DNA from: Rugalucina vietnamica
Lineage: Eukaryota > Mollusca > Bivalvia > Lucinida > Lucinidae
DNA length: 64,000 nucleotides
Assembly: GCA_964017185.1 (NCBI GenBank)
Contig: OZ024870.1
Coordinates: 22,653,621-22,717,620 of the forward strand
Direction: 5' to 3'
The notes under the pieces: generated by a model
What the model saw: the letters and a program-made list of their open reading frames with translations, nothing else
What the model was told of the DNA's origin: nothing
Databases searched by the model: none
Position numbers and translations under genes: made by a program
Shown: positions 57,515-63,438 of the stretch, piece by piece
How the letters are laid out: every line of letters starts with the position of its first letter
Numbering within the stretch: the first letter of the stretch is position 1

Positions 57515-57659
57515 GGGTCAAGTGTATTATTGGGGACCCTTCTTTATCTTAAAAAAACCTACACTTAACTACTACATAATACACCAAAAGTCGACAAGTC
57601 TTCAAGAGGACAAATGGACAATTTATAAATGAGGACCCTTCTCCCAATCTCATAGGTCG

Positions 57660-57725
57660 ACAAGGCGACAGGTCGACAAGTCGACAAGTCGACAGGTCGA
57701 CAAGTCGACAAGTCGACAATTCAGT
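57660..57725. repeat. 9 bp GTCGAC satellite, inverted cluster type
   Basis: Units gtcgacaag and gtcgacagg. Similar left-type clusters follow the word gaggacccttctcccaatct at 57631, 58528, 59061, 59645, 60165 and 61119. Each is followed about 110 bp later by a right-type cluster of gtcgacttg and gtcgacctg (for example 57825, 58715, 59245, 59838, 60357 and 61311). Left- and right-type clusters are complementary, so each pair can fold into a long hairpin around a conserved loop containing catcatgcacttagtcctt. Confidence 0.88.
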
Positions 57726-57984
57726 TTTGGCAGTTTAGGTTCTATTTCCCATCATGCACTTAGTCCTTGTAGTTCCTCTTGGACTATACCTACCTATCCA
57801 TTTATATATTTTGGCAATATTGAATTGTCGACTTGTCGACTTGTCTACGTGTCGACCTAGTGCTTTTGTCAATAAGAAAGATCCGGTTAAGTTTATGGTT
57901 AGATTAGGGTTAGTGTAAGCAATTTTGGCATTATTGATTTGTCGACTTGTCGACCTGTCGACCTAGTGCTATTGTCAATAACAA

Positions 57985-58060
57985 AGATCCGGTTAGGGTT
58001 AGGGTTAGTGTTAGGGTCAGTGTGTGGTTAGGGTTAGGGCTTGGCTAGGGTTAGGGTTAG
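57985..58060 (+). repeat. TTAGGG-type telomere-like repeats
   Basis: Runs of ggttagggttagggttag mixed with variants (gtgttagggtcag, gggcttggctag). Other blocks are at 58425-58490, 59410-59490, 59577-59605, 61010-61080, 61505-61590, 61820-61900, 62308-62375, 62700-62765 and 62895-62960. TTAGGG is the standard molluscan telomere unit, here interstitial and degenerate. Confidence 0.88.
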
Positions 58061-58260: not shown

Positions 58261-61200
58261 GTGGATATGCTGCTGTACATCTATATATGTCAATTATCTG
58301 CCGAAATTGATTTGTCGACTTGTCGACCTGTCGACTTGTCGACCTGTCGACCTGTCGACTTTTCGACCTGTCGACTGGTCGACCTGTCGAGCTAGTGCTA
58401 TTGTCTACAACAAAGATCCGATTAGGGTTAGGGTTAGTGTGTGGTTAGGTTTAGGGCTGGGTTAGGGTTAGGGTTAGGGTAAGGGTTAACTGTTGACACT
58501 CAGATTGGGACAATAGTGACCATTAATGAGGACCCTTCTCCCAATCTCATAGGTCGACAAGTCGACAGGTCGGCAAGTCGACAAGTCGACAGGTCGACAA
58601 GTCGACAAGTCGACAATTCGGTTTTGGCAGTTTAGGTTCTATTTCCCATCATGCACTTAGTCCTTGTACTTCCTCTTGGACTATACCTACCTATCCATTT
58701 ATATATTTTGGCAATATTGATTTATCGACTTGTCGACTTGTCGACTTGTCGACCTGTCGACCTAGTGCTATTGTCAATAAGAAAGATCCGGTTAGGTTTA
58801 TGGTTAGATTAGGGTTAGTGTTAGCAATTTTGGCATAACTGATTTGTCGACTTGTCGACCTGTCGACTTGTCGACCTGTCGACCTGTCGACCTAGTGCTA
58901 TTGTCAATTACAAAGATCCGGTTAGGGTTAGGGTTAGATTAGGGGGGTCAAGTGTATTATTGGGGACCCTTCTTTATCTTAAAAAAAACTACACTTAACT
59001 ACTACATAATACACCAAAAGTCGACAAGTCTTCAAGAGGACAAATGGACAATTTATTAATGAGGACCCTTCTCCCAATCTCATAGGTCGACAAGTCGACA
59101 GGTCGACAGGTCGACAGGTCGACAAGTCGACAAGTCGACAATTCAGTTTTGGCAGTTTAGGTTCTATTTCCCATCATGCACTTAGTCCTTGTAGTTCCTC
59201 TTGGACTATACCTACCTATCCATTTATATATTTTGGCAATATTGATTTGTCGCCTTGTCGACTTGTCGACCTGTCGACCTAGTGCTTTTGTCATTAAGAA
59301 AGATCCGGTTAGGTTTATGGTTAGATTAGGGTTAGTGTTAGCAATTTTGGCATTATTGATTTGTCGACTTGTCGACCTGTCGACCTAGTGCTATTGTCAA
59401 TAACAAAGATCCGGTTAGGGTTAGGGTTAGTGTTAGGGTTAGTGTGTGGTTAGGGTTAGGGCTTGGCTAGGGTTAGGGTTAGTGCTTGCCTCCCAGGCGT
59501 CGTATGCGATCATGCTTCAGGTATATGATGATTATTATGTATTGACAGCTATATACCACATAGACTCTTTTTCCTGGGTTAGGGTTAGGGTTAGGATAAG
59601 GGTTAACTGTTGACACTCAGATTGGGACAATAGTGACCATTAATGAGGACCCTTCTCCCAATCTCATAGGTCGACAAGTCGACAGGTCGACAAGTCGACA
59701 AGTCGACAGGTCGACAAGTCGACAAGTCGACAATTCGGTTTTGGCAGTTTAGGTTCTATTTCCCATCATGCACTTAGTCCTTGTACTTCCTCTTGGACTA
59801 TACCTACCTATCCATTTATATATTTTGGCAATATTGATTTGTCGACTTGTCGACCTGTCGACCTAGTGCTATTGTCAATAAGAAAGATCCGGTTAGGTTT
59901 ATGGTTAGATTAGGGTTAGTGTTAGCAATTTTGGCATTATTGATTTGTCGACTTGTCGACCTGTCGACTTGTCGACCTGTCGACCTGTCGAACTAGTGCT
60001 ATTGTCAATTACAAAGATCCAGTTAGGCTTAGGGTTAGATTAGGGGGGGGGTCAAGTGTATTATTGGGGACCCTTCTTTATCTTAAAAAAACCTACACTT
60101 AACTACTACATAATACACCAAAAGTCGACAAGTCTTCAGGAGGACAAATGGACAATTTATTAATGAGGACCCTTCTCCCAATCTCATAGGTCGACAAGTC
60201 GACAGGTCGACAAGTCGACAAGTCGACAGGTCGACAAGTCGACAAGTCGACAATTCAGTTTTGGCAGTTTAGGTTCTATTTCCCATCATGCACTTAGTCC
60301 TTGTAGTTCCTCTTGGACTATACCTACCTATCCATTTATATATTTTGGCAATATTGATTTGTCGACTTGTCGACTTGTCGACCTGTCGACCTAGTGCTTT
60401 TGTCAATAAGAAAGATCCGGTTAGGTTTATGGTTAGATTAGGGTTAGTGTAAGCAATTTTGGCATTATTGATTTGTCGACTTGTCGACCTGTCGACCTAG
60501 TGCTATTGTCAATAAGAAAGATCCGGTTAGGTTTATGGTTAGATTAGGGTTAGTGTTAGCAATTTTGGCATTATTGATTTGTCGACTTGTCGACCTGTCG
60601 ACCTAGTGCTATTGTCAATAACAAAGATCCGGTTGATTAGGGTTAGTGTTAGGGTTAGTGTGTGGTTGGGGTTAGTGCTTGCCTCCCAGGCGTCGTATAC
60701 GATCATGCTTCAGGTATATGATGATTATTATGTATTGACAGCTATATACCACATAGACTCTTTTTCCCATCATGCACTTAGTCCTTGTATTTCCGCTTGG
60801 ACTATACCTACCTATCCATTTATATATTTTGGCAATATTGATTTGTCGACTTGTCGACTTGCCTTTAAGTTTCCAGTGGATATGCTGCTGTACATTTATA
60901 TATGTCAATTATCTGCCGAAATTGATTTGTCGACTTGTCGACCTGTCGACCTGTCGACCTGTCGACTTGTCGACCTGTCGAGCTAGTGCTATTGTCTACA
61001 ACAAAGATCCGATTAGGGTTAGGGTTAGTGTGTGGTTAGGTTTAGGGCTGGGTTAGGGTTAGGGTTAGGGTGAGGGTTAACTGTTGACACTCAGATTGGG
61101 ACAATAGTGACCATTAATGAGGACCCTTCTCCCAATCTCATAGGTCGACAAGTCGACAGGTCGACAAGTCGACAAGTCGACAGGTCGACAAGTCGACAAG

Positions 61201-63246
61201 TCGACAATTCGGTTTTGGCAGTTTAGGTTATATTTCCCATCATGCACTTAGTCCTTGTACTTCCTCTTGGACTATACCTACCTATCCATTTATATATTTT
61301 GGCAATATTGATTTGTCGACTTGTCGACTTGTCGACCTGTCGACCTGTCGACCTAGTGCTATTGTCAATAAGGAAGATCCGGTTAGGTTTATGGTTAGAT
61401 TAGGGTTAGTGTTAGCAATTTTGGCATTATTGATTTGTAGACTTGTCGACCTGTCGACTTGTCGACCTGTCGACCTGTCGACCTAGTGCTATTGTCAATT
61501 ACAAAGATCGGGTTAGGGTAAGGGTTAGATTAGGGTTAGTGTTAGGGTTAGTGTGTGGTTAGGGTTAGGGCTTGGCTAGGGTTAGGGTTAGTGCTTGCCT
61601 CCCAGGCGTCGTATGCGATCATGCTTCAGGTATATGATGATTATTATGTATTGACAGCTATATACCACATAGGTTCTTTTTCCCATCATGCACTTAGTCC
61701 TTGTATTTCCGCTTGGACTATACCTACCTATCCATTTATATAATTTGGCAATATTGATTAGTCGACTTGTCGACCTGTCGACCTGTCGACCTAGTGCTCT
61801 TGTCAATAATAAAGATCCGGTAAGGGTTCGGGTTAAGTTAGGGTAAGGGTTAGGGTTAGTGTGTGGTTAGGGTTAGGGTTGGGTTAGGGTTAGGGTTAAC
61901 TGTTGACATACAGATTGGGACAATATGTCAATAACAAAGATCCGGTTGACCAACATCTCCACCTCCATTTGTATACACCACTCATACTGATTTGTCGACT
62001 TGTCGACCTGTCGACTTGTCGACCTGTCGATTTACTGATGTGGACATTACAGAAGATCCATCTCCCTAGCCAATTCTTGTACTTCCGATTGAACTATACC
62101 TACCTATCCATTTAAATATTTTGGCAATATCGATTTGTCGACTTGTCGACTTGTCGACTTGTCGACCTGTCGACTTGTCGACCTAGTGCTATTGTCAACA
62201 ACAAACATCTATATATGTCATTTATATGTACTGCCAAAATTGAATTGTCGACTTGTCGACCTGTCGACTTGTCGACTTGTCGACCTAGTGCAATTGTCAA
62301 CAACAAAGATCCGGTTAGGGTTAGGGTTAGGGTTAGTGTGTGGTTAGGTTTAGGGTTGGGCTAGGGTTAGGGTGGACCAACATCTCCACCTCCACTTGTA
62401 AACACCACTCATACTGATTTGTCGACTTGTCGACCTGTCGACTTGTCGACCTGTCGATTTACTGATGTGGACATTACAGAAGACCCATCTCCCTAGCCAA
62501 TTCTGATTTCTGATTTTTAACTGTTTACCTATAGATAAGGACATTAATGCGGGCATCTATAACCATTAATGAGAGCATCTTCACATCCATTTACATGTAT
62601 ACATACATGTATAATCAATACTGATATGTCGACTTGTCGACTTGTCGACCTGTCGACTTGTCGACCAGTTGACCCACAGCTATTGTCAATAACAAAGATC
62701 CGGGTAGGGTTAGGGTTAGGTTAGGGTTAGGGTTAGGTTGGTGTTATGATTGTGTTAGGGTTTGAGTTAACTCTTGATATACAGAATGAGTGAATAATGA
62801 CCATTTTTCAATAGTGAATTGTCGACTTGTCGACTTGTCGACCTGTCGACTTGTCGGCCTGTTGACCTAGTGCTCTTGTCTATAACAAAGATCAGGTTAG
62901 GGTTAGGGGTACGGTTAGGTTATGGTTAGGCTTAGGTTGGTGTTAGGGTTAACTGTTGATATACAGATTGGGACAATACTGAATTGTCGACGTGTCGACT
63001 TGTCAACCTGTCGTCTTTTCAACCTATGATTATTGCGAGGTACCGCTTGAGTTAGCTGTTCACGTCCTTGTATAAAGATTAATGATATTGATTTGTAAAA
63101 TGATCGACTTGTTCACCTTTCACGATACTGATGTGGCCATTAGGCAGCATCCTTTTTGCCAGCCAGATATACGATGTATGATTTGTATCGAGCAGTGAAG
63201 GTTATCGGACATGTATTGAAGAGCACCTGGTGTATGTCTTGGTGTG

Positions 63247-63394
63247 ATATATATATATATATATATATATAATGTAAAAATCCAGATGTCACTATATATA
63301 TATATATATATATATATATATATATATATATATATATATATATATATATATATATATATATATATATATATATATATATATATATATATATATA
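63247..63394. repeat. (TA)n microsatellites
   Basis: Two pure ta runs (63247-63271 and 63292-63394) near the right end of the 5.9 kb element. Confidence 0.97.
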
Positions 63395-63438
63395 GGTCTG
63401 TGATCCTAACGTATGGTCCCCAATAGTGCCCTTGAGCC

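Follow-up and report, generated by a model that had tools for sequence, protein, structure and literature searches.

We analysed a 64,000-nucleotide window of the genome of the bivalve Rugalucina vietnamica (contig OZ024870.1, here C2; C2:22653621-22717620), in which a terminal inverted repeat (TIR) element with telomere-like repeats occupies positions 57515-63438. The 8-mer GAGGATAC flanks the element as a target site duplication (TSD), located by sequence match on the + strand at 57507-57514 and 63439-63446, and it occurs on the + strand of the window at those two places only. The ends of the element, GGGTCAAGTGTATTATTGGGGACC and GGCTCAAGGGCACTATTGGGGACC, form imperfect 24-bp TIRs (57515-57538, + strand; 63415-63438, - strand) that are identical at 20 of 24 positions, as counted by eye. 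An insertion of 5.9 kb with TIRs and an 8-bp TSD had been proposed in the initial annotation of the window, and this was borne out. The same annotation had stated that a decayed protein frame reads across the insertion when the 8-mer is counted once. The frame is indeed continuous over the site on that count, but the available homologous proteins stop short of the junction and thus provide no test of its continuity. One flanking open reading frame (ORF) had 46 relatives, among them a protein of Dreissena polymorpha (48% identity, 60% of the query), and two flanking ORFs matched no Pfam family.

Complete left ends were found in the window copy at 57515, 58945, and 60049 (0 of 100 shuffles reached 3 matches). 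They divide the + strand of the element into a first left-end unit of 1,430 bp (57515-58944) with the final bases ...TTAGATTAGGG, a second unit of 1,104 bp (58945-60048) that starts with a complete internal left end, and a remainder (60049-63438) with the third complete left end at its start and the right terminus at its finish. The left-end units are mutually 0.975-0.988 identical. The interior is a repeated module composed of a reversed GTCGAC array, a segment of about 100 bp, a forward GTCGAC array, a AAGATCCGG spacer, and a TTAGGG cluster. The first large reversed array, with a period of 8, lies on the - strand at 57656-57719, and more are found at 58553, 59086, 59670, 60190, and 61144. 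Forward GTCGAC clusters, AAGATCCGG spacers, and TTAGGG clusters are spread over the + strand region 57827-63007, and an AT dinucleotide tract, with no strand assigned, lies close to the right end (63247-63394).

Hexamers were counted in the element, taken one base short, and in the rest of the window: TTAGGG occurred 64 versus 9 times, CCCTAA 0 versus 11 times, and GTCGAC 150 versus 5 times. The TTAGGG clusters make up 489 bp (8.3%) and the GTCGAC arrays 1,094 bp (18.5%) of the window copy, so the earlier description of the cargo as "almost entirely" such repeats overstated its composition. The GTCGAC arrays, which had been assigned a 9-bp unit, have a period of 8 bp. The longest perfect TTAGGG run in this copy is 3 units. 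A 29-base string from the module gave 0 exact matches in viral_contigs.

The initial annotation had suggested a genome-wide search for such ends with 8-bp duplications and had named other copies without TIRs or TSD as evidence that would speak against its reading. The genome (1.09 Gb, 47 contigs, labelled C1, C2, and so on; fetched loci are labelled L) was searched with 20-mers from both ends, with up to 3 mismatches allowed. The right-end 20-mer was found at 153 + 126 places, versus 3 + 4 for the reversed control, and the left-end 20-mer at 122 + 103 places, versus 14 + 16. Work on the loci used the first 100 places listed in each end search. The first 20 loci were the stretches with all exact left ends among the matches listed on C1-C5; 16 of them gave a pair of ends with identical 8-mers, L016 and L024 were unpaired within their stretches, L021 was paired later, and L011 was completed through its right flank.

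TSDs were counted in 55 of the left/right pairs. Identical 8-bp TSDs were present in 47 pairs, a one-base difference was seen in 3, the TSD was shifted in 1, and 4 had none, so that 50 of 55 carry a TSD with at most one mismatch and the contrary finding named in the initial annotation was not borne out. A batch of 26 pairs, in which loci with several left ends were scored by the best-fitting one, contained 24 exact TSDs and 2 with one mismatch. A batch of 15 pairs gave 12 exact TSDs, 1 shifted by an indel (L057/L058), and 2 without TSD (L063/L064 and L087/L088). Copies on C9 and C17 and the outer copy on C16 were added by eye as exact, together with the inner copy on C16 with one mismatch. In the last batch, 3 completed loci were exact, and 7 further pairs comprised 5 exact and 2 without TSD (L104/L105 and L108/L109). 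The TSD of L037 sits in an ATCT repeat and therefore carries little weight. Control 8-mers outside the ends agreed in only 1 of 224 pairs. The window element is a member of a dispersed family of cut-and-paste DNA transposons that look non-autonomous.

Sixteen full copies ranged from 3,343 to 6,987 bp and contained 38-88 TTAGGG and 69-164 GTCGAC hexamers. The TTAGGG clusters occupied 8.3-11.4% of each copy, with a longest perfect run of 3-4 units, and the G-rich strand pointed toward the right end (CCCTAA was absent from 15 of the 16 copies and occurred once in the other). Among the 197 clusters of at least 2 hexamers in these copies, 191 had a AAGATCCGG-like spacer at most 80 bp ahead and 179 were preceded by a GTCGA site. 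A right segment of about 200 nt showed a median identity of 95.5% (range 89.8-99.0%) over 55 copy pairs from 11 of the 16 copies, the other 5 being left out for want of the anchor motif. Two end variants, A and B, were distinguished; B has the left end ...TTAATGGG and the right end ...CAGTATTGGG with the same kinds of array, and B left ends are also paired with A right ends. Strongly expanded copies with exact TSDs were found on C7 (L030, 10,003 bp) and C1 (L011, 9,965 bp), with array throughout the stretches read. Some element sequence was also included in local duplications: L024/L025 on C4, about 18 kb apart, and L076/L077 on C17, about 3.7 kb apart, share a TSD or flank. L035 and L036 on C8 share one TSD about 92 kb apart and look like a duplicated locus.

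The telomere-like content raises the question of whether a chromosome fusion or the repair of a break left a telomere relic here. TTAGGG-type repeats do lie inside a chromosome here, and many other telomere-like tracts exist in the genome: perfect (TTAGGG)4 gave 4,669 + 3,080 matches, overlapping ones counted, versus 0 for the reversed control. Against such a relic stand the precise TIRs and TSD, the frame over the site, the dispersed copies elsewhere, and longest perfect TTAGGG runs of just 3-4 units. We regard it as extremely improbable, and for this locus the TSD, TIRs, and frame exclude an origin by fusion or break repair. Continuity of the array with a telomere or fusion point had been named as a finding that would speak against a mobile element; it was not borne out at this locus, which is 22.7 Mb into a contig of 83 Mb and where both element ends are precise. 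No telomere was seen in the ends of C1-C5 (10 stretches of 1.5 kb), where TTAGGG and CCCTAA occurred at most twice each and GTCGAC was absent; C1, C2, C4, and C5 read N at their starts.

Six telomere-like places on C1 (L049-L054) were without GTCGAC and outside the element family; four of them matched it over short stretches of 33-87 nt and two not at all. Since other telomere-like tracts abound, the element is to be counted as one carrier, next to other sources, of telomere-like blocks that are short and degenerate. The initial annotation had set telomere-like DNA inside a mobile element apart from interstitial DNA explained by fusion or repair. The TIRs and TSD support the first part, but the difference from ordinary interstitial telomere DNA is smaller than this suggested because the telomere-like share is about one tenth, the repeats are degenerate, and L049-L054 lie outside the family. 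Two of the six places showed features of their own. From L049 (C1:60243000-60246500) to at least C1:60260862, in the middle of a 102-Mb contig (60.24 Mb), there is a tandem array with a period of about 1.3 kb and perfect TTAGGG blocks, unrelated to the element family by BLAST. At L050 (C1:25200-25800), a CCCTAA tract adjoins a frame that by eye resembles the ORF at window 63529-63999.

The family looks non-autonomous because no frame longer than 162 aa was present in the 16 full copies (longest frames, 106-162 aa), the lack of a transposase gene being judged from frame length in the copies. Three long pairs were considered as autonomous copies and set aside. L030 proved to be an expanded array; L029 (9,651 bp) and L031 (8,640 bp) have no frame above 131 and 116 aa, respectively, and their non-array stretches, which share little with other fetched loci, might still contain remnants of a transposase. 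Genome searches for transposases were compared with the positions of at least 111 element ends among the matches listed, a distance test that a diverged autonomous copy could escape. The hAT search gave 116 matches (150 of 199 candidates scored), the nearest 82.8 kb from an end, and the MULE transposase (PF10551) 59 matches, the nearest at 87.7 kb. None of the 56 Merlin-type (PF12762) or 2 KDZ (PF18758) matches lay within 50 kb. By eye, 14 of the 56 Merlin matches are on C11, which has none of these ends.

A TSD of 8 bp fits Merlin and P elements. It also fits the usual hAT length and KDZ/Zisupton, an 8-bp duplication being given as usual in hAT and present in Zisupton in the available part of PMC12730594. 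Classification as a miniature inverted-repeat transposable element (MITE) was rejected by size, the 16 copies and the shortest pair (125 bp) being compared with a MITE size of about 400 bp (PMC9659126, in the passage available). A foldback element was likewise rejected, with TIRs of 24 bp and TTAGGG in a single orientation.

We were particularly interested in the left ends that lie inside copies. In loci L009-L038, the left-subterminal motif of subfamily A (at most 3 mismatches) was accompanied by a complete terminus (at most 4 mismatches) in 34 of 34 cases, of which by our own count 22 were outer and 12 internal. The internal left ends, found in 8 of the first 20 loci (L009, L011, L012, L016, L017, L019, L021, and L027), start at base 1 of the element and show five kinds of junction: ...GATTTGTC in L009, ...GATCCGGT in L011, ...GATCCGGTTA at L019:3269, ...GATGATTATTA in L027, and ...TTAGATTAGGG in the other eight. 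The last junction was also present in L083 on C9, and at the third left end of L017 it carries three additional G. The 22 nt before the junctions, in the same order, occurred 165, 67, 46, 68, and 61 times in the 16 full copies with one substitution allowed, and ran into a left end 1, 0, 1, 1, and 2 times (L011 is outside the 16 copies). Unfilled sites therefore exist and are common in the family.

Nested copies were also observed. On C1, an intact inverted copy with the inner TSD CATAAACC lies in a module of a copy with the outer TSD GAATGGTG; both TSDs are exact, and the reading covers the pair except for 2.7 kb before the outer right end. On C16, the outer TSD TATATCTC is exact, the inner one reads CAATAATA/CAATAATG, and family module sequence lies on both sides of the inner copy. 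Four end pieces of 81 bp, with the interior outside the reading, suggest that this is a second self-nested copy. With 279 copies of 5 kb assumed, 0.026 insertions into the family are expected among 20 random insertions, and the probability of at least one is 0.025. The smaller probabilities computed for five or six hits presuppose that the junctions are independent, which is the point at issue. Short elements derived from an internal left end were considered as well, and alignments of L022, L026, and L028 to the window copy gave no clear support. L022 fitted the outer left end best (0.938 over aligned bases; internal ends 0.854 and 0.809), L026 fitted the first two left ends equally (0.909; third 0.856), and L028 gave 0.829, 0.803, and 0.848.

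Several copies look as if they had grown by self-insertion. A transposase supplied in trans would act on the ends of about 24 bp, with an 8-bp stagger at insertion, and the telomere-like hexamers would travel as cargo in the reiterated module. The element may often transpose into itself or into a sister copy. Homologous recombination between modules would then delete the inner right end and leave an extra left-end unit, and each round of self-insertion would lengthen the array. We think it probable that this is a non-autonomous cut-and-paste family whose array lengthens by self-insertion and recombination. That the transposon builds its own satellite-like interior through repeated self-transposition, with the telomere-type repeats as ordinary cut-and-paste cargo, has in our judgement about an even chance.

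A number of observations weigh against growth by self-insertion and recombination. The hAT, Merlin, KDZ, and MULE searches found no transposase for the element ends among the matches listed, and TSDs were absent from 4 of 55 pairs. The first 20 loci contained a single case of intact nesting (P about 0.025), and the C16 case was chosen because several ends showed there. The loci were selected by the presence of exact left ends, and the test with the subterminal motif concerns subfamily A. No internal right end was seen in the first 20 loci, although internal ends of both kinds could result from simple nesting with recombination; one conjectural reason is that homology is unevenly distributed over the parts of a nested pair. 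Moreover, 8 of the 12 internal left ends share one junction, which reduces the independent events to about five. Modules are hardly closer within an element than between elements (mean identity 0.920 versus 0.916), and the nearest neighbour of a module lies in the same element 18.0 times, versus 7.0 expected, of 117. The excess of same-element neighbours indicates that local duplication also acts.

The common junction, the same-element neighbours, and the high identity of the left-end units in the window are all favourable to replication slippage and unequal crossing-over alone, by which the array of the same transposon would have grown while the internal left ends arose as tandem duplications that include the terminus. 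Growth by slippage or unequal exchange is the main competing explanation and a live one. It does not predict a terminus on all of the subterminal motifs, and four more kinds of junction, with different partners, break exactly at base 1; as the sole process we consider it rather unlikely. Identical base-1 junctions and tandem left-end units would also result from intramolecular autointegration, in which an excised element attacks itself, a circle forms where the left end is linked to an internal position, and this circle recombines into another copy. Sleeping Beauty and piggyBac are documented examples of such autointegration, according to the available text of PMC3952818. This route predicts internal right ends too, and the first 20 loci had none, while the intact nested copies are direct evidence for a simpler route, so we regard autointegration as improbable.

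Selection might on the other hand keep the blocks, if the GTCGAC arrays were to bind the transposase or the TTAGGG blocks to recruit telomere proteins. Both blocks are present in the A and B copies read, the TTAGGG share is 8.3-11.4% across the 16 copies, and the strand orientation is uniform. A 125-bp copy free of arrays nevertheless has the ends and a matching 8-mer, although, within the ATCT repeat that surrounds it, a matching 8-mer carries little weight, and a deletion may have occurred later. Maintenance by selection appears improbable to us.

Other repeats in the window lie away from the element. An 11-kb block at 27757-38679 consists of tandem modules, 17-bp and trinucleotide, that are repeated first in one direction and then in reverse, with inverted arms of up to 853 nt at 97%. 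Arrays of 21-bp tandem repeats at 1850-2925 and 7343-8025 have the consensus TTATGTTGTGTGGACCTATCT and CACAACATAAAGACAGTTTCA, and the second appears to be the first type of repeat on the opposite strand.

If growth by self-insertion and recombination is correct, its trail makes the acquisition of an array countable through base-1 junctions, nested TSDs, and unit numbers, and the growth mechanism is testable. A genome could gain many interstitial telomere-like blocks in this way without fusion or break repair. In the golden mussel, interstitial TTAGGG signals were seen by fluorescence in situ hybridization with no long array in the assembly, according to the available part of PMC12818792. Short blocks in a dispersed transposon may resemble that pattern, the species itself being outside this analysis.

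Among the papers listed in the open-access literature, titles and the starts of abstracts yielded no TIR transposon with telomere repeats, which is weak evidence of absence. Partial likenesses were found in several systems, the closest being MITE-like elements with tandem arrays and, as regards self-insertion, the autointegration of Sleeping Beauty and piggyBac. One is the Xmix MITE with the Xstir repeats of Xenopus, reportedly the work of Hikosaka and Kawahara in 2004. In the passages available, these occur as MITE, array, and composite forms (PMC9659126, PMC12628747), and like the present family they are non-autonomous TIR elements tied to tandem arrays. By that description they are set apart from the present family, which has kb-sized copies, two kinds of short repeat, one of them telomere-like, and internal ends at base 1. 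Tetris of Drosophila virilis is similar in being apparently non-autonomous and modular, with rearranged forms and internal tandem repeats; it differs, by the available part of PMC4079207, in its foldback-like structure, the TIRs themselves containing tandem repeats, whereas here the array lies between TIRs of 24 bp. Sleeping Beauty and piggyBac likewise insert into themselves, but in the accessible text this is suicidal and concerns human cells (PMC3952818), whereas the traces here seem to last and to add to the length of the element.

Pearl and the MITE-derived satellites of bivalves, as well as the (GTCY)n MITEs, are also mobile elements that carry or seed tandem repeats; a telomere-like block, present here, goes unmentioned in the passages available (PMC6947457, PMC9659126). 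Coral MITEs form tandem arrays, as stated in the available part of PMC2872659. Finally, the family resembles interstitial telomeric sequences in having telomere-type repeats away from chromosome ends, and mobile-element transposition is named as a possible origin of such sequences in the excerpt available of PMC6410037. By comparison, the blocks of the present family are short and degenerate, and the TSDs of dozens of copies document transposition as a source of interstitial telomeric DNA.

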